From an uncultured Verrucomicrobia subdivision 3 bacterium (lineage in GTDB: Bacteria; Verrucomicrobiota; Verrucomicrobiia; Limisphaerales; UBA11358), in assembly GCA_903865745.1 (NCBI GenBank), contig CAIPKV010000052.1:62001-126000 (forward strand): a stretch of 64,000 nucleotides of DNA. The letters are read 5' to 3'. The notes under the pieces are model-generated. The model was not told the origin of the DNA. It saw nothing but the letters and a program-made list of their open reading frames with translations, and ran no database searches. Numbering within the stretch: the first letter of the stretch is position 1; every line of letters starts with the position of its first letter. Position numbers and translations under genes: made by a program. Positions 4,426-50,293 of this stretch are shown piece by piece.

Positions 4426-4574
4426 AAGTGTGGTCCGGTTTTGTCCCGGTTCGCGCATTTCGCGTGGTTTGCGGTGGATGATTTGCTCCCCTGACTCCCC
4501 AACTGTAGCTTTTTAGCTACCATTTCCGCTGAACACGAGCCTGCCCGCGTCAACTATAGCTGATACACCAAACG

Positions 4575-4823
4575 GTAAATGGCCGATTGGGGGGTGTAAA
4601 TGGCTTGGTGGAGGTCGTAAATGGCTTTTTGTGCCCGGTAAATGACTTGGTGCGGAGTGTAAATGACCTTTTATGCCTCGTAAATGACTTGGCGGGGGTG
4701 GTAAACGTCGGTTTGCCTCCGGTAAATGGCTTGGCGTGGGGTGTAAATGGCTTGGCGCGCCTAGTAAATGACTTGTTGGGGGTAATAAATGGCTTTTTCA
4801 TACCGGTAAATGGTTTGCCGGCC
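4575..4823. repeat. 21-bp tandem repeat array 1 (12 units)
   Basis: Twelve consecutive units each begin exactly 21 bp after the previous one, with no indel. The core is GTAAATGRCTTG at unit positions 1-12; positions 13-21 vary. Ten of twelve units begin GTAAATG. Two unit types recur: one continuing CTTGGYG, one T-rich (CTTTTTGTGC-like), alternating over units 2-7. The array sits between the convergent DUF4139 gene and smc. Because 21 is a multiple of 3, open frames of heptapeptide repeats appear on both strands (for example Lys-Pro/Ser-Phe-Thr on minus), but without ribosome sites or homologues I do not treat them as coding. Confidence 0.93.
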
Positions 4824-10460: not shown

Positions 10461-10529
10461 ATTCGGTTTCAGCCCGCACGTGAATTGAATTGCCCCGTGG
10501 CAATTCCAGTTTATTTTACTCATCTGTAC

Positions 10530-13076
10530 ATGGCTGAAAAATCTAGCACCCCCATCCCGTCCATTCCGCCCGGCGTCAAACTCACTACGCTCGAGAGCGG
10601 CCTGACCATCATTGTCCGCGAAGACCATAGCGCGCCCGTCGTTTCCGCGCAGGCGTGGGCGATGGCGGGCAGCATTCACGAAGGTCGCTGGCTCGGCGCC
10701 GGACTTTCGCACGTGCTCGAGCACATGCTTTTCAAGGGCACGACCACCCGGCCCGGCAGCCGCATTGATCAGGAAGTGCAGGAGGCCGGCGGCTATATGA
10801 ACGCCTACACCAGCTTTGATCGCACGGTCTATCACATTGATGTGCCGAACACTGGCGCCGTGAAGGCCATCGATATCCTGTGCGACATCATGCAGCACGC
10901 CTCGCTGCCGCCCGATGAACTCGCCAAGGAGATGGATGTCATTCGTCGCGAAATGGACATGTGCCATGACGATCCGGGCCGCCGCGCGAGCCGCCGTTTA
11001 TTTGAAACGGCTTACACCAAAAGCCCCTATCGCTTCACCATCATCGGTTACCCGGACATTTTCAACGAGGTGAAGCCCGAAGATATTCGTAATTATTACA
11101 CGGAGAAATACGCCCCCAACAATGTCTTCTACGTCGTCGCCGGCGATGTGAAGCATGACGAAGTCGTCGCGCAAATCAAAACCGCCTACGCCCAGAGTAA
11201 ATCCAAGGCCATGCCGCCCAGCGTCCTGCCTTTGGAACCGCGCCAGACGGCGGCGCGCGAAATCATCGAGGAATCGCCCGTGGAACTCGGCCATGTCCAT
11301 TTTGCCTGGCACATTCCTGAGTTGCGCCATGCCGATGTACCAGCGCTCGATGTCCTCGCTGTTTTGCTTGGCAGTGGTCGCAGTTCGCGCCTGTTCCAAC
11401 AGGTGCGCGAGAAGCAAGGCGTCGTTCACCATGTGGATGCCTGGACTTACAGCCCCGGCTTACCGGGCCTGTTTGGCATCAGCGCGGTGGTGGATGGCGA
11501 CCAATTTGAAGCCGCGCAGAAAGCCATTCTCGCCGAGATTGAGAAGATTAAGATGCTGTCGGCTTCCTCCAATGAATTGCACAAAGCCATCAAGCAATTC
11601 ATCTCCGCCACGTTGTCCGCGCGCAAGACCATGGAAGGTCAGGCGCAGAATCTCGGTGGCAACTGGCTCGCCGCGAATGACCTCAATTTCTCCGAGCGCT
11701 ACCTCGCCGCCGTCAAGAACGTCACGCTCGCGGATATCCAGCGCGTTTCGCGCCATTATCTGACGGCGGAGAATCGCACGCTTTACGCGCTGCTGCCGGA
11801 AGGTGCCACGCCGAAGACCAAGGCCAATGTCGAGACCAACACCGACAACGCCATCCAGAAAATTGTTTTGTCGAATGGCCTCAAGCTGCTCGTGAAGGAA
11901 GATCATCGTCTGCCGTTCGTGGAATTCCGCGCTGTGTTCAAGGGCGGCGTTCTGGCGGAAACCACCGCGAACAACGGCACCACCATGCTGCTCGCCAAGA
12001 TGCTCATCAAGGGCACGGCCACACGGAATGCGGAAAAGATTGCGACGGAGATTGAATCCGTCGGCGGCCACATTGACAGCTACGGCGGCAATAATAGTTT
12101 CGGCATCAACACCGAAGTGTTGAGCGAAGACTTTGCCACCGGCTTGAACCTGCTGGCTGATGTGATTCTGAATCCCGTTTTTCCCGCCGACGAATTGGAG
12201 CGCGAGAAGGAGATTCAGATTGCCGGCATTCGCGCCCGCAAGGATGAACTGCTCAAGACCGCGAGCCTCGCCATGCGCCGCGCGCTGTTTGGGGAGAGCG
12301 GATACGGTCTGGATTCGCTCGGCTCCGAGGAGTCCGCCGGCAAAGTTTCGGTGGCCGACCTAAAAGCCTTTCATCGCCGGCTCACTGCGCCCAACAATTG
12401 CGTGCTCGCGATTTTCGGCGATGTCAAAACCGCCGAAGTCAAAGCCGCCGTTGAACAGGCGTTCGCGCGTTGGCCGATGGCGGAAGGCAAAGCCCTTGCG
12501 ATTCAACCCCAAGCTCCTAGCGCTCAACTTCCCGCCCGCGTCGAAGAGACGCGCGACAAGAAGCAGGCGGTGCTCGTCGTTGGTTTTCCGGGCACCACGA
12601 TGGGGGACGACGACAAATATGCGCTCGACCTGTTGCAGGAGGGTTGCAGCGACCTCGGCTCGCGTTTGTTTTTGCGGATTCGCGAGCAGCTCGGGCTGGC
12701 ATACTATGTGGGCGCGCAGAATTTCGCCGGGCTGGTGCCAGGCTACTTCGCATTTTACACCGGCACCGAGCCAACCAAGGTGGGGCAGGTGGAAGCCGAA
12801 TTGTTAAAGGAAGCCGAATTGCTCCGCACGGAAGGGTTGACGGCGGAAGAATTGAAGCGGGCGAAGGCCAAGATTATCGGCCAGAAGAAAATCGCCCGGG
12901 CCGACCTCGGCAACCTCGCTTCGACGTCCGCCTTGGACGAACTGTACGGGCTGGGCTGGCAGCGCGCAGAACTGGACGATGCCAAGTACGAAGCCGTGAC
13001 GCTGGACCAGATCGAAGCCGTCGCCCAGAAATATCTTAAGCCCGACGCCCTGGTCATCTCCGTCGTCAAACCTTAA
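10530..13076 (+). CDS. M16 family zinc metallopeptidase, two-domain form
   Basis: From the ATG at 10530 this is an 848-residue protein holding two M16 modules. The N-terminal module has the inverted zinc motif HxxEH at residues 61-65 (HVLEH) with a downstream acidic helix (EMDVIRREMDM) for the third ligand, so it should be catalytic. The C-terminal module (from about residue 440, LKLLVKEDHRLPFVEFRAVFKGG) lacks HxxEH, having NNGTTMLLAKML at that place, and should be the non-catalytic clamp half. Two-half M16 proteins (pitrilysin or PqqL style) degrade peptides. No signal peptide is evident, so it is probably cytosolic. An upstream in-frame ATG at 10485 is less likely. The stop is followed at once by repeat array 2. 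Confidence 0.94.
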   Translation: MAEKSSTPIPSIPPGVKLTTLESGLTIIVREDHSAPVVSAQAWAMAGSIHEGRWLGAGLSHVLEHMLFKGTTTRPGSRIDQEVQEAGGYMNAYTSFDRTVYHIDVPNTGAVKAIDILCDIMQHASLPPDELAKEMDVIRREMDMCHDDPGRRASRRLFETAYTKSPYRFTIIGYPDIFNEVKPEDIRNYYTEKYAPNNVFYVVAGDVKHDEVVAQIKTAYAQSKSKAMPPSVLPLEPRQTAAREIIEESPVELGHVHFAWHIPELRHADVPALDVLAVLLGSGRSSRLFQQVREKQGVVHHVDAWTYSPGLPGLFGISAVVDGDQFEAAQKAILAEIEKIKMLSASSNELHKAIKQFISATLSARKTMEGQAQNLGGNWLAANDLNFSERYLAAVKNVTLADIQRVSRHYLTAENRTLYALLPEGATPKTKANVETNTDNAIQKIVLSNGLKLLVKEDHRLPFVEFRAVFKGGVLAETTANNGTTMLLAKMLIKGTATRNAEKIATEIESVGGHIDSYGGNNSFGINTEVLSEDFATGLNLLADVILNPVFPADELEREKEIQIAGIRARKDELLKTASLAMRRALFGESGYGLDSLGSEESAGKVSVADLKAFHRRLTAPNNCVLAIFGDVKTAEVKAAVEQAFARWPMAEGKALAIQPQAPSAQLPARVEETRDKKQAVLVVGFPGTTMGDDDKYALDLLQEGCSDLGSRLFLRIREQLGLAYYVGAQNFAGLVPGYFAFYTGTEPTKVGQVEAELLKEAELLRTEGLTAEELKRAKAKIIGQKKIARADLGNLASTSALDELYGLGWQRAELDDAKYEAVTLDQIEAVAQKYLKPDALVISVVKP

Positions 13077-13098
13077 CCCTTCCCGGCTCCCTGAACTG

Positions 13099-13329
13099 AC
13101 TTGCGGGCGTCACAAAATGACTCCCTTGTGGTCAGCAATGACGTCATTGTCTCGCGCACAGGCGTCAGTTTGTCAGGAATAGACGTCAGTTTGTCAGAAA
13201 CAGACGTCATTGTCTCACACACAGACGTCATTGTCTCACACACAGACGTCAGTTTGTCAGCCATAGACGTCAGTTTGCTCCGGACAGACGTCAGTTTGTC
13301 GCAAACTGACGTCAGTACGTGTATAAAAA
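13099..13329. repeat. 21-bp tandem repeat array 2 (9 clear plus 2 degenerate units)
   Basis: Nine units run without indels from 13141 to 13329, each 21 bp, and two weaker ones precede them back to about 13099, only 22 bp after the M16 stop. Units begin ACGTCA and fall into two types, ACGTCAGTTTGTCAG and ACGTCATTGTCTCAC; two of the latter at 13204 and 13225 are identical. Positions 15-21 are the most variable. The TGACGTCA-like core is palindromic. The array lies between the convergent M16 and delta-60 genes. The consensus shares nothing with array 1 except the period. Confidence 0.93.
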
Positions 13330-13553
13330 ACAACAGTTGGCGGACGATAAATATGGTTAAGCCGTTGCCAATGGATGGCTTGGACCGAAAACGCGGTTTT
13401 TGACCCGGGACAGACCCGAATTTCATAAATTGGCACGAACCCAGCGCGACTAGGATGGAGGCAAAGGGCAGCTGCACGGAAAGGGTTGGAAAAAAGCGGT
13501 AGAATTTCTTCCATAGTTGCAACCGCCGATGAAATATATTTTGGTTGTTTAGC
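13330..13553. other. gap after array 2, no gene seen
   Basis: Between the array and the end of the delta-60 gene I see no convincing coding sequence. Short open frames here read out of the array and have no homologue I recognise. A small AAAACGCGGTTTTT hairpin at about 13388-13401 is the only structure, and it is weak as a terminator. Confidence 0.4.
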
Positions 13554-15248
13554 TTACTGTGGGCTGGCCACGCGATAGAAACGCATGGGGAAGCTTTTTG
13601 CACCTTCATCACGAAAGATTCCAGTGCCAGCGGAATCGGTCTGGTTGGTGACGCTGTTGCTCCAAGCCGAAGCATTGAGCGCCTCGCAGGTTTGTAGGAT
13701 ATAGGTCTGTAACGGGTTGCCTTGAAACTGGATCACGGCAACACCGTCGTTAAGGTTGAGCGAGTTAATGAGGACGGTTTGAGGTTTTGAAGCAATCAAC
13801 GTTGCCCGTGCCATGGTCGTGGTAACTGCTGTGTTCACAGTTGGATTGGTTGTTGCGGACAGCATTTGCACCGGTACCCGCCGCCACGCCTTCAAATCGT
13901 CATGGGTCGTGAAGCGCTTCTGGAACTCGGTGTCCAAGGAACCGTCTGGATTCAGCCGCGCGAAATAGGGACACTTGACGCCGTTCACTTCAGAAAAAAA
14001 TCCTACAATTAGGATGCGTCCGTCCGCTTGCAGTGCCACGCCCATGACCCGGGTATCGCCGCCAGTCACACAATGGAAGGCGGGATCAGTCGAACCGTCC
14101 GACAGAAGACGTGCGAGACCGTGGAAAGGTTCGCCGTTCACCTTCGAGAAATCGCCAGCCAGAAGCAACTTGCCGTCTGGTTGAAGAACCATGGTAGAAT
14201 AACTGCTAACGACTACATCAACTGGATTCGTTACGGGAAAGCTGGGTGGCCCTGAAATGGAATAGCCATGATGTTTCTTCCCCTCAAATGAGCTGTTGAA
14301 GCTGAAGTCAGGTTGCCAAGTGGAGTCGAAGCGCATCAGGTGGCTACCGTTGGTTCCTTCCACAGCCAGAATCGCGCCGCCGTCAGGAAGACGCGTGGCG
14401 TAGCGGCATAATTCAATTGGCGCTTCCTTGAAAAGTGAGGCTAGTTCCGGTGCCACGTCAGCCGCCGATGGAGGTTCACCCCATAATGGGAACCCAACAT
14501 TCCGATTTTTCTGCGGCCACGAAGTCCAAGTTGTGCGCGTATTGCGATGCCAGTCAATGCTACGTTGCGCGCCAAAGCCGTTATCCCTAAAAAGCAGAGA
14601 CATTTGCGCGTATGGCCAATCATTCGAGATTATGTCTATGCCTGGTCGGGGAACATATGCCCCGGAGGAATCCAGAAGGTAGGTAGTTAGATAGTTAAAG
14701 CGGCAAGCTATTGTAAATGAGGGCACGGCCACACAACCATTCGTGAGCAGGGCGGCGGGATAGAGCACCCCAACACGACCACACCGGGCAGGCGGGTTCG
14801 AATATCCGCGCCACGGCTCGAATGAATCGTCCAGTTTGCCATTGGGCAGAATCATGGCATAACCATTTCGTGGTTTTCCGTCCACGGCTTGGAATACGCC
14901 GGTAAGAAGCATCCGTCCGTCTGGTGCGGAGGTGATGTGTGCATACTGGGGGGCAGTAGTGTTGGCCGGAACGATGTTGCAACGGAAAGTTCGGTCAAGT
15001 GAACCATCAGGGTGAAAGCGAAATGCGCCGTCTTGAATCAGGTTGATCATTCCCGAAGTTGTATCTAAGGCAAAGAGACTGATGCCGCAACTCACTACAA
15101 TCCTACCGTCCGGCTGCACTGCAACCCCACCCATTGGAAAGTTGATTGCATAGATTTCAGTCGGTTCGGCCGGCGTTGTTTCCGCGTGTGCTGGCACGCA
15201 AATAGCCAGAGTCCATACAATACCCAGTAGTGTTAATCTGTTTTGCAT
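13554..15248 (-). CDS. exported delta-60 repeat protein
   Basis: The ATG at 15248 gives a 564-residue protein with a signal peptide (MQNRLTLLGIVWTLAICVPAHAE); a GTG eight codons earlier is possible but less likely. The body consists of delta-60 repeats of the type LQPDGKLLLAGDF...VNGEP...ARLLSDGSTDPAF and LQADGRILIVGFFSEVNGV...ARLNPDGSLDTEF, which are expected to fold as a beta-propeller-like array. The C-terminal 100 residues (TYILQTCEALNASAWSNSV...FYRVASPQ) form a beta-rich tail common in secreted verrucomicrobial proteins. Function is unknown; adhesion or surface display is plausible. It converges on the M16 gene over repeat array 2. Confidence 0.85.
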   Translation of the reverse strand: MQNRLTLLGIVWTLAICVPAHAETTPAEPTEIYAINFPMGGVAVQPDGRIVVSCGISLFALDTTSGMINLIQDGAFRFHPDGSLDRTFRCNIVPANTTAPQYAHITSAPDGRMLLTGVFQAVDGKPRNGYAMILPNGKLDDSFEPWRGYSNPPARCGRVGVLYPAALLTNGCVAVPSFTIACRFNYLTTYLLDSSGAYVPRPGIDIISNDWPYAQMSLLFRDNGFGAQRSIDWHRNTRTTWTSWPQKNRNVGFPLWGEPPSAADVAPELASLFKEAPIELCRYATRLPDGGAILAVEGTNGSHLMRFDSTWQPDFSFNSSFEGKKHHGYSISGPPSFPVTNPVDVVVSSYSTMVLQPDGKLLLAGDFSKVNGEPFHGLARLLSDGSTDPAFHCVTGGDTRVMGVALQADGRILIVGFFSEVNGVKCPYFARLNPDGSLDTEFQKRFTTHDDLKAWRRVPVQMLSATTNPTVNTAVTTTMARATLIASKPQTVLINSLNLNDGVAVIQFQGNPLQTYILQTCEALNASAWSNSVTNQTDSAGTGIFRDEGAKSFPMRFYRVASPQ

Positions 15249-30534: not shown

Positions 30535-30718
30535 AACGTCAAGAGTCACCACGGGCGTGACGCGCGCCGACTCCACTTTAAGTGGACATAGAGTTCTCGC
30601 TTACCGTCAGCGCGGCCCCCATGCTGCGCCCTGTGATGTTGATTGCCACCCATCCGATGCTCGCCCCCGCCACTGGACTCACCAGTGCCGCCCGCCAGTC
30701 ATTGCTTGGCGTCAGCCA

Positions 30719-31012
30719 ATTATCCGTGGGCACTCACAGACCTTCCGTGGTTGACCACAGGTCATCCATGATCGTCAACGAGTCTCCCATGAGCGACCAC
30801 AGAACATCCGTGAGACCTCACAGGGTATCTGTGAGCGCTCATGGAACACTCGTGAGACCTCATGGATCATCCGTTGGACCTCATGGAAGGTCTGTGAGGC
30901 CTCATGGACCATCCATGGGACCGCATGGGACACCTGTGAGCGCTCATGGACTATCCGTGAGACCTCATGGAAGACCTGTGGTCTCTCATGGATTACCTAT
31001 GAACACCAACCA
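30719..31012. repeat. 21-bp tandem repeat array 3 (14 units)
   Basis: Fourteen 21-bp units without indels end 55 bp before the start of the next gene. The later units have consensus near NNCATCCGTGAGACCTCATGG; the first four are more diverged (GACCACAG endings in place of CTCATGG), so the array seems to have grown toward its right side. Two subtypes recur at positions 12-16 (GACCT and GCGCT). The plus-strand frame reads Ser-Val-Arg-Pro-His-Gly heptads, but I see no ribosome site or homologue supporting translation. This array lies in a gap between two rightward genes, unlike the other three. Confidence 0.93.
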
Positions 31013-31067
31013 ATCAACCATCCACAACCACACAGAACCCGTATAAACCCACAAGAAAAAATTATTT

Positions 31068-31775
31068 ATGCCCTATCAAGATTATATTGACCACACTGAC
31101 ATCGGTCTCGCGTCCCAAATGATCACCTTCCGCGACAATATCGGGGGTGAACTCGTGGCTTTGGGCATTCTGGCCACGGATGAGGACATTGTCCAACAGG
31201 CGTTGGATGCCACCCGGTTCCGGGCGGTCGTGGATTTCAACGGCACCATGCAGCAAGCCGCCATGGGCTGGACGGCCGAGAAGAATTTTGAACGCGACGG
31301 CGGCAGCCTTGCCGCCGCCAGCCAAAATGTACCGGTTCTCTCGAAGGACTTCCCGCCCGCCGTGCCGCCGGGCATTTTGGCGCGGTTCCGCTATCTGGCG
31401 CAGCGCATCAAGGCGCTTAAGACCTACACCATCGCCATCGGCCAGACGCTCGGTTTGGAAGGCATCAGCGCCGTGGCCAATGCCACCATCGCGGGCACCG
31501 CCCAACCCATTGCCCGGGGTCGGGCCTTGGTCAGCGGCGGCGCGGAAATCAGCTCCAACAAGGCGGATGCCGAAGCAGTGGATATTTACGGCCAGCGCGA
31601 TGGTGACCTTGCGCCTCTACGGCTCGCGCGCGTTATGCATCTGCCCTTCATTGATGCCCGACCGTTGCTGGTGCCCGGCAAGCCGGAGACGCGGGAATAT
31701 TACACCGTCTTCGTCCGCAACGATCAGGAATACGGCCAGTCCAGCGCCACCATCAAAGTCGTCGTCACCGCCTGA
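31068..31775 (+). CDS. conserved-looking protein of unknown function
   Basis: The 235-residue protein starts MPYQDYIDHTDIGLASQMITFRDNIGGELVALGI and is mostly helical in its first 140 residues. There is a middle helix FRYLAQRIKALKTYTIAIGQTLGLEG and then a beta-rich C-terminal domain: GRALVSGGAEISSNKADAEAVDIYGQRDGD, FIDARPLLVPGKPETREYYTVFVRND, YGQSSATIKVVVTA. This end looks like a fibronectin-III-type sandwich. I have an impression of similar two-part proteins in other Verrucomicrobia, but I cannot name a function. No signal peptide or membrane segment is visible. Array 3 ends 55 bp upstream, inside its leader region. Confidence 0.7.
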   Translation: MPYQDYIDHTDIGLASQMITFRDNIGGELVALGILATDEDIVQQALDATRFRAVVDFNGTMQQAAMGWTAEKNFERDGGSLAAASQNVPVLSKDFPPAVPPGILARFRYLAQRIKALKTYTIAIGQTLGLEGISAVANATIAGTAQPIARGRALVSGGAEISSNKADAEAVDIYGQRDGDLAPLRLARVMHLPFIDARPLLVPGKPETREYYTVFVRNDQEYGQSSATIKVVVTA

Positions 31776-50041: not shown

Positions 50042-50293
50042 CAACGGGTCCGTTCACACCATCAACTCCTCCAGTCGAGCCGCCAACTCCTCCGTGGTTC
50101 TCGCTAGCCCCTTCGTTTGCGCCGCGAACTCCCCCAATATTCCTACCAGCCCCTCCGTTCGTGGCGTCAACTCCTCCGTTCACGCCGCCAGCCCCTCCAA
50201 ACTCGCCACCAACTCCTCCAAGATTCCCGCCAGCCCCTCCAACCATGCCGCCAACTCCTCCGTTGGCGCCGCCAACGGGGCCAATCTTACGGG
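50042..50293. repeat. 21-bp tandem repeat array 4 (12 units)
   Basis: Twelve 21-bp units without indels begin 15 bp after the YjbQ stop. The pyrimidine-rich core is CARCYCCTCC, followed by a variable part often ending in GCCGC. Units at 50147, 50168, 50189, 50210, 50231 and 50252 strictly alternate CAGCCCCTCC and CAACTCCTCC, giving a 42-bp higher-order period. The minus-strand frame reads Gly-Gly-Val/Ala heptads and runs on antisense into the YjbQ gene; I do not consider it coding. The array lies between the convergent YjbQ and rex genes. Confidence 0.93.

Follow-up and report, generated by a model that had tools for sequence, protein, structure and literature searches.

A row of GACGTC palindromes behind an M16 peptidase gene is the interior of a dispersed array element with 21-bp pitch in a Limisphaerales genome

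Just behind an M16 peptidase gene in the window (the whole 64,000-nucleotide stretch analysed here) lies a tandem array whose palindromes recur every two helical turns, and the question it raises is whether these are sites for cooperative protein binding on one face of the helix, as a sequence-only reading had suggested, or part of something larger. Much of that earlier description holds. It is clear that ACGTCA begins eight of the eleven units (at 13141, 13183, 13204, 13225, 13246, 13267, 13288 and 13309) and that each of the eight is preceded by G, giving the GACGTC palindromes that had been noted; the units at 13099, 13120 and 13162 lack them. The neighbouring units at 13204 and 13225, reported as identical, are the same across all 21 bases, and the array does begin 22 bases downstream of the M16 stop codon (TAA, 13074-13076). 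The full octamer TGACGTCA occurs just twice, at 13139 and 13307, so the accurate wording is "GACGTC every 21 bp". Identity at lag 21 is 0.69, compared with 0.16-0.34 at the remaining lags from 15 to 27 and with a mean of 0.25 and a maximum of 0.34 in 2000 shuffles. The array was detected independently by TRF, as 21 bp with 6.3-7.6 copies and as 63 bp with 2.8 copies, and its units are dyad-symmetric relative to column permutations (P = 0.003; an earlier statistic gave P = 0.090). The coordinates of the features are collected in Table 1.

Table 1. Features of the window discussed in the text.
Feature	Position	Strand	Remarks
Array 1	4565..4816	.	12 units of 21 bp; solo, flanked by convergent genes; units lack a dyad (P = 0.49)
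M16 peptidase gene	10485..13076	+	Pfam PF00675 and PF05193; left neighbour of array 2, outside the system
Dispersed array element, family A, containing array 2	13090..13440	+	Approximate boundaries; homologous copies, ends judged by eye
Array 2	13099..13329	.	11 units of 21 bp, GACGTC in 8
Conserved right flank of family A	13318..13440	+	Starts ACGTGTATAAAAAACAACAG; kept among copies with differing interiors
Array 3	30725..30997	.	13 units of 21 bp; dyad P = 0.003; directly upstream of F2 gene
F2 gene (235 aa)	31068..31775	+	F2 profile match, downstream of array 3; paralogue at L239
Array 4	50042..50293	.	12 units of 21 bp; solo, flanked by convergent genes; units lack a dyad (P = 0.55)

The M16 gene is irrelevant to the array system. 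Among 80 named records, mostly titled Verrucomicrobia and many of them subdivision 3 or Limisphaerales, the best matches to its protein show 88-89% identity, and no 21-bp array was seen 3' of M16 in the downstream stretches viewed for 14 relatives. TRF on the 80 M16 loci of these named relatives (1.06 Mb) returned no array of period 21 and 30 of period 7; a lag scan of the same loci at a looser score of 20 gave five lag-21 segments, a number equalled at some other lags. Heptamer-period arrays lie at or right after M16 in two relatives (L081:3113-3266 and L100:6090-6180). Downstream of lysS in relatives, no array was present in 4 of the 12 loci tried (L352, L353, L360 and L362), where synteny is broken and which are hence not clean empty sites; of the remainder, six have an unlocated gene end, L361 stops at a contig end and L351 is the host genome itself.

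A search of the genome with the DNA of 13077-13560 recovered four copies of a family, here called A, at C79:90520-90868, C85:62539-62662, C52:10671-10909 and C28:53547-53674. These share a left end near CGGACTGACTYSCTTGCGG and a right flank of about 120 bp, which delimits an element of about 350 bp; the span originally given is therefore correct for the array, and the homologous unit is longer. The interiors are of different kinds: the window, C79 and C52 copies carry ACAGACGTC-like cores, and the C85 and C28 copies carry AAGCGGGAGCTT cores with 9-bp spacers, again at a pitch of 21 bp, with the cores kept and the spacers varying. A second family (L013, with copies in C13, C16, C3 and C29) likewise retains its flanks around interiors of two kinds. 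Array 2 is thus no isolated binding-site cluster but the interior of a dispersed element. Since the core differs even between copies of the same element within one genome, an array specific for GACGTC is unsupported; the sequence-only reading had made its proposal depend on conservation of the core in orthologous arrays, and by that measure the sequence-specific version falls while a version based on spacing stands.

The same replacement of interiors is seen between paralogous modules. The module at 30641-31775, which contains array 3 and the F2 gene, aligns with its paralogue in L239 at 81% identity across 1398 bp, a value that the flanks and genes exceed; the two F2 proteins are 95% identical, and their arrays are unrelated save for the first unit. 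Old units at the edge with new ones inside would correspond to the pattern of satellite turnover. On a wider scale, 76 arrays of the genome (63 parsed arrays and 13 new ones) fall by blastn into 49 clusters, 16 of them with several members, and interiors are unrelated within one family.

What the arrays have in common is their pitch. Four arrays of 21-bp period, mutually unrelated in sequence, lie in the window (Table 1); the host is a Limisphaerales (Verrucomicrobiota) MAG of 3.63 Mb in 87 contigs, of which 1.35 Mb (the window and further stretches) was sampled for pitch. A local lag scan of this sample at a score of at least 25 found 69 segments at lag 21, compared with one at lag 20, two at lag 22 and zero at lags 19 and 23; the harmonic lag 42 gave 63. 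TRF agreed, with 52 arrays of base period 21, one of 20, two of 22, two of 41, six of 42, 20 of period 7 and a few others. Among genus-mates, G014 has four lag-21 segments in 96 kb, G003, G017 and G018 have two in a combined 57 kb, and G005 has seven in 167 kb, although several of these seven are runs of heptamers or may be coding. A simple gene caller applied to the first 0.79 Mb puts 42 of 47 arrays between genes, and the remaining five, which are weak, overlap genes; a protein-coding repeat of seven residues was rejected on this evidence. An Rfam scan of the window returned one tRNA and nothing else.

In the larger sample, 63 of 72 non-overlapping array hits parsed to at least six units and were kept, and nine were dropped. 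The parsed arrays mostly have 9-17 units, with gaps in only 7 of 799 units, a figure obtained with a fixed-lag scan and a parser that are biased toward arrays free of indels; in the 52 period-21 rows of TRF, indels range from 0 to 14%, with 26 rows at 0%. The typical intergenic array has about 12 units, nearly always of 21-bp period and mostly of a sequence unrelated to the others. Some arrays look freshly expanded, with near-identical 21-bp units (L262:10848-11210 in G014, and L025:2400-2709), and old diverged arrays are found in the same genomes. Others (L009, L010, L012 and L020) are no more than a few hundred bases away from the end of a contig, which suggests that arrays break the assembly.

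Symmetry is the second common property. The unit profile is dyad-symmetric relative to column permutations at P<0.05 in 48 of the 63 arrays and at P<0.01 in 39 (an earlier, smaller test gave 23 of 33); a dyad is absent from 15, window arrays 1 and 4 among them. The cores number in the dozens and are unrelated to one another. In a wedge model, curvature was 0.156 for the arrays, 0.094 for column-permuted versions of the same pitch and 0.060 for random windows, falling to 0.072 and 0.098 when the arrays were re-pitched to 20 and 22, and 14 of 73 arrays exceeded the 95th percentile of their own permutations. The parameters of this model are provisional, column permutation also alters dinucleotides, and members of one array family do not count as independent samples, so that the greater curvature of the arrays is only a hint of a phased shape.

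The arrays are also tied to genes. In an all-against-all comparison of 905 called proteins, two families, F1 and F2, ranked first or joint first by size, with 8 and 6 members, and 13 of these 14 members have a 21-bp array no more than 700 bp upstream, the fourteenth having an upstream array of 20-bp period. Of the members found by profile in the sample, all 17 have an upstream array, counting that of L020, at a contig start, from the initial comparison only. A further 13 members, picked from protein searches blind to arrays, all have an array 33-370 bp upstream and none downstream, bringing the host genome to 30 of 30 F1/F2 genes found. The C-terminal domain of F1 is FN3-like (the F1 profile matches FN3 among solved structures, best E 3e-14); for Pfam fn3 it scores slightly below the cut-off. 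F2 gave no significant match, its profile compared with solved structures likewise gave none, and the window F2 gene has no Pfam family at E<=0.001; a single-sequence structure model of F2 had a mean pLDDT of 29.7 and was set aside. Searches found neither F1 nor F2 in viral contigs, no F1 in plasmids and no F2 in phage records. The single member of a third small family (L235:13566-14249, minus strand) has upstream of it a weak 21-bp array with no dyad.

The linkage extends beyond the host. Among 196 genomes of the order, F1 profiles match 23 and F2 profiles 27, often with several copies per genome (copy numbers being minima, since the candidates scored in each genome were capped), and a phylum-wide search for F1 matched 4 of 337 genomes, the host included. 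Sixty F loci were excised, four of them from the host genome; the other 56 were tested, 52 of them with at least 300 bp upstream. An array at lag 20-22 lies upstream in 34 of the 52 and downstream in none of the 56 (Fisher P = 3e-15). By individual lag, upstream arrays were counted at 33 loci for 21, one for 20, two for 22 and at most five for any other lag from 10 to 39. As we read the tables, these represent 22 genomes and 18 labelled families, and 29 of 33 parsed arrays have a dyad at P<0.05, again with unrelated cores. The two-turn phasing of dyad-symmetric units, the part of the cooperative-binding idea that survives, is therefore a property of the genome and of the order. The other 18 of the 52 loci have no array at the threshold used, and they speak against an obligatory link between array and F gene outside the host genome. 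At L279, L280, L298, L299, L305, L306, L307 and L331 the DNA between array and F gene contains small ORFs that look conserved and are rich in DP, W and P motifs (e.g. GDPGYVP), motifs that were not found in the sample of the host genome. Arrays with a base period of 8 bp (lags 16, 24 and 32) are found several hundred bp upstream of F genes at L280, L299, L306 and L330.

Array 2 itself is one of the 47 of the 63 arrays that have no adjacent F gene, so that the arrays are not only regulators of F genes. These solo arrays occur in all gene orientations, and no orientation bias large enough to claim was seen. Exactly one F-linked array is present in 12 of the 16 clusters with several members (7.0 expected by permutation, P = 0.012), while two clusters have two such arrays and two have none; the typical motif is thus represented by one F-linked array plus solo relatives, a pattern compatible with a mobile master copy as well as with a group of related targets.

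Free sequence, a pitch of 21 bp and symmetric units together narrow the mechanism, and what remains is phased shape; this suggests that spacing rather than sequence is what the cell uses. We give about an even chance to the reading in which a cis element coded by its pitch and indifferent to sequence belongs upstream of F genes and is curved or coated on one face, array 2 being a solo copy of it. Such an element would consist of about 12 tandem units, usually dyad-symmetric and fixed at 21 bp, two turns of B-DNA, a register in which each unit would present the same feature on the same side of the helix. From its normal site upstream of the small F1 genes, with their FN3-like C-terminus, and F2 genes it would act on the promoter as phased DNA, either curved or coated with protein, and its effect would depend on spacing and symmetry rather than on a particular sequence. 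The letters would turn over in concert within the conserved ends, as in a satellite, probably through unequal exchange or through conversion, in either case without loss of register. A broader proposal, put forward more tentatively and at somewhat below even confidence, is that bacteria have here an equivalent of satellite DNA, with selection acting on the length and symmetry of the unit and leaving its sequence free; any 21-bp unit with a dyad, present in about a dozen phased copies, could then serve as upstream control of the patchily distributed F1/F2 module while its letters are continually replaced.

The main rival, which we consider unlikely though serious, is a MITE-like or minisatellite-bearing mobile element without function for the cell, in which the F genes would be part of, or riders on, a full-length element and the solo arrays would be its short derivatives. 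Dispersed copies with conserved ends, the patchy and often multiple presence of F1 and F2 in the order and the excess of clusters with a single F-linked array are all in its favour, and BrickBuilt of Porphyromonas is a precedent (PMC4596501). On the other hand, inspection by eye showed no terminal inverted repeats in copies of family A or B, the array is upstream and never downstream where it is linked to F genes, and it is common to two dissimilar gene families. Mobility alone would fix neither a 21-bp pitch nor dyads in unrelated sequences, and the Y1 transposase family (PF01797) is not expanded, with 2 matches in the host compared to up to 9 in 23 relatives; RAYT-driven REP elements are disfavoured on this count.

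Alternatively, each array could be an operator to which a homodimeric protein of its own, possibly an F protein, binds cooperatively on one face, with the motif changing along with the partner. Dyads at two-turn spacing, the kept cores and varying spacers of the C85 and C28 copies and the predominance of one F-linked array per motif cluster are consistent with this, as is the lack of base-pair covariation between the arms of single units, which is expected of independent half-sites. We nevertheless regard it as improbable: it would require dozens of specificities, and the two F2 proteins are 95% identical yet have unrelated arrays, so that F2 does not set the motif, which disfavours, as far as these sequences indicate, a cognate F protein as the binder. 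Nor was a single-site regulon of the array cores evident; core motifs match outside the arrays 2146 times compared with 1209 in permuted controls, but 554 of this excess of 937 come from one low-complexity array. A leader RNA that precedes the F coding region and forms about 12 hairpins is the least probable of these alternatives and, in our view, very unlikely. Folding energies of 36 arrays do lie far below those of their shuffles with dinucleotides kept (mean z of -4.6 on one strand and -4.7 on the other), but both strands fold equally strongly and covariation between dyad arms of single units (mean z 0.09, 126 values) is not above that of control pairs (0.01, P = 0.35). RNA or cruciform hairpins with compensatory changes were rejected on the latter result, and RNA hairpins in general are disfavoured; RNA has no need of an exact 21-nt pitch, and the solo arrays occur in every gene orientation.

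Regulatory DNA is usually recognised by its sequence. What is conserved here is length (21 bp), symmetry and upstream position, and the sequence is replaced even between paralogous modules; the pitch-coded element, if confirmed, would be a system in which to test regulation through the shape or phasing of DNA, as well as concerted evolution in bacteria, and F1 and F2, a previously unlinked pair of families, would be open to study as one module.

Several known systems share some of these properties. Plasmid iterons are direct repeats about two turns apart, bound on one face by an initiator, and resemble the arrays in this spacing; unlike the arrays they are few, non-palindromic and confined to a replication origin with its Rep protein. 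In CRISPR arrays, repeats of about 23-50 bp alternate with unique spacers comparable to them in length; the arrays here do not fit this, the clearest case having 12-bp cores and 9-bp spacers. Of the features of a sequence-specific operator array, dyad sites in helical phase are present, but the core is not conserved among homologous arrays. In the open-licence part of the literature, neither pitch-locked, sequence-free arrays nor their link to F1/F2 was found described, and on that basis both appear to be new.

REP/BIME sequences and REPINs with RAYT are, like the arrays, many-copy extragenic palindromes, Verrucomicrobia included (PMC3733652, PMC3116915); REPs have a family sequence with a GTAG or CGTC tag, whereas the 12-unit arrays have arbitrary cores, unrelated across arrays, and form no such tagged family. 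Borg tandem repeats also form many independent, fast-evolving and sequence-unrelated arrays per genome, but their unit length is variable, about half lie inside ORFs, and the part of the source available (PMC9879509) reports neither a fixed pitch nor an upstream link to gene families, both of which the arrays have. Intergenic TAACTGA repeats are similarly enriched upstream of genes; they differ in being a fixed heptamer near start codons, with no pattern in the functions of the downstream genes (PMC4679880).

The nearest known object is BrickBuilt of Porphyromonas gingivalis, a 23-nt minisatellite of 1 to 22.8 units within a MITE, for which promoter activity has been reported (PMC4596501). In that source 2 of 19 BrickBuilt elements adjoin M16 peptidase genes, probably by coincidence. 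The likeness lies in intergenic tandem arrays of about two helical turns, with imperfect units, a conserved leader and tail and dispersed copies, and families A and B do keep both flanks around their repeats. BrickBuilt, however, has one repeat sequence and inverted-repeat ends (PMC4596501), whereas the arrays described here share no single repeat sequence among copies; they are mostly unrelated in sequence, dyad-symmetric, fixed at a pitch of 21 and linked, always from upstream, to two gene families.
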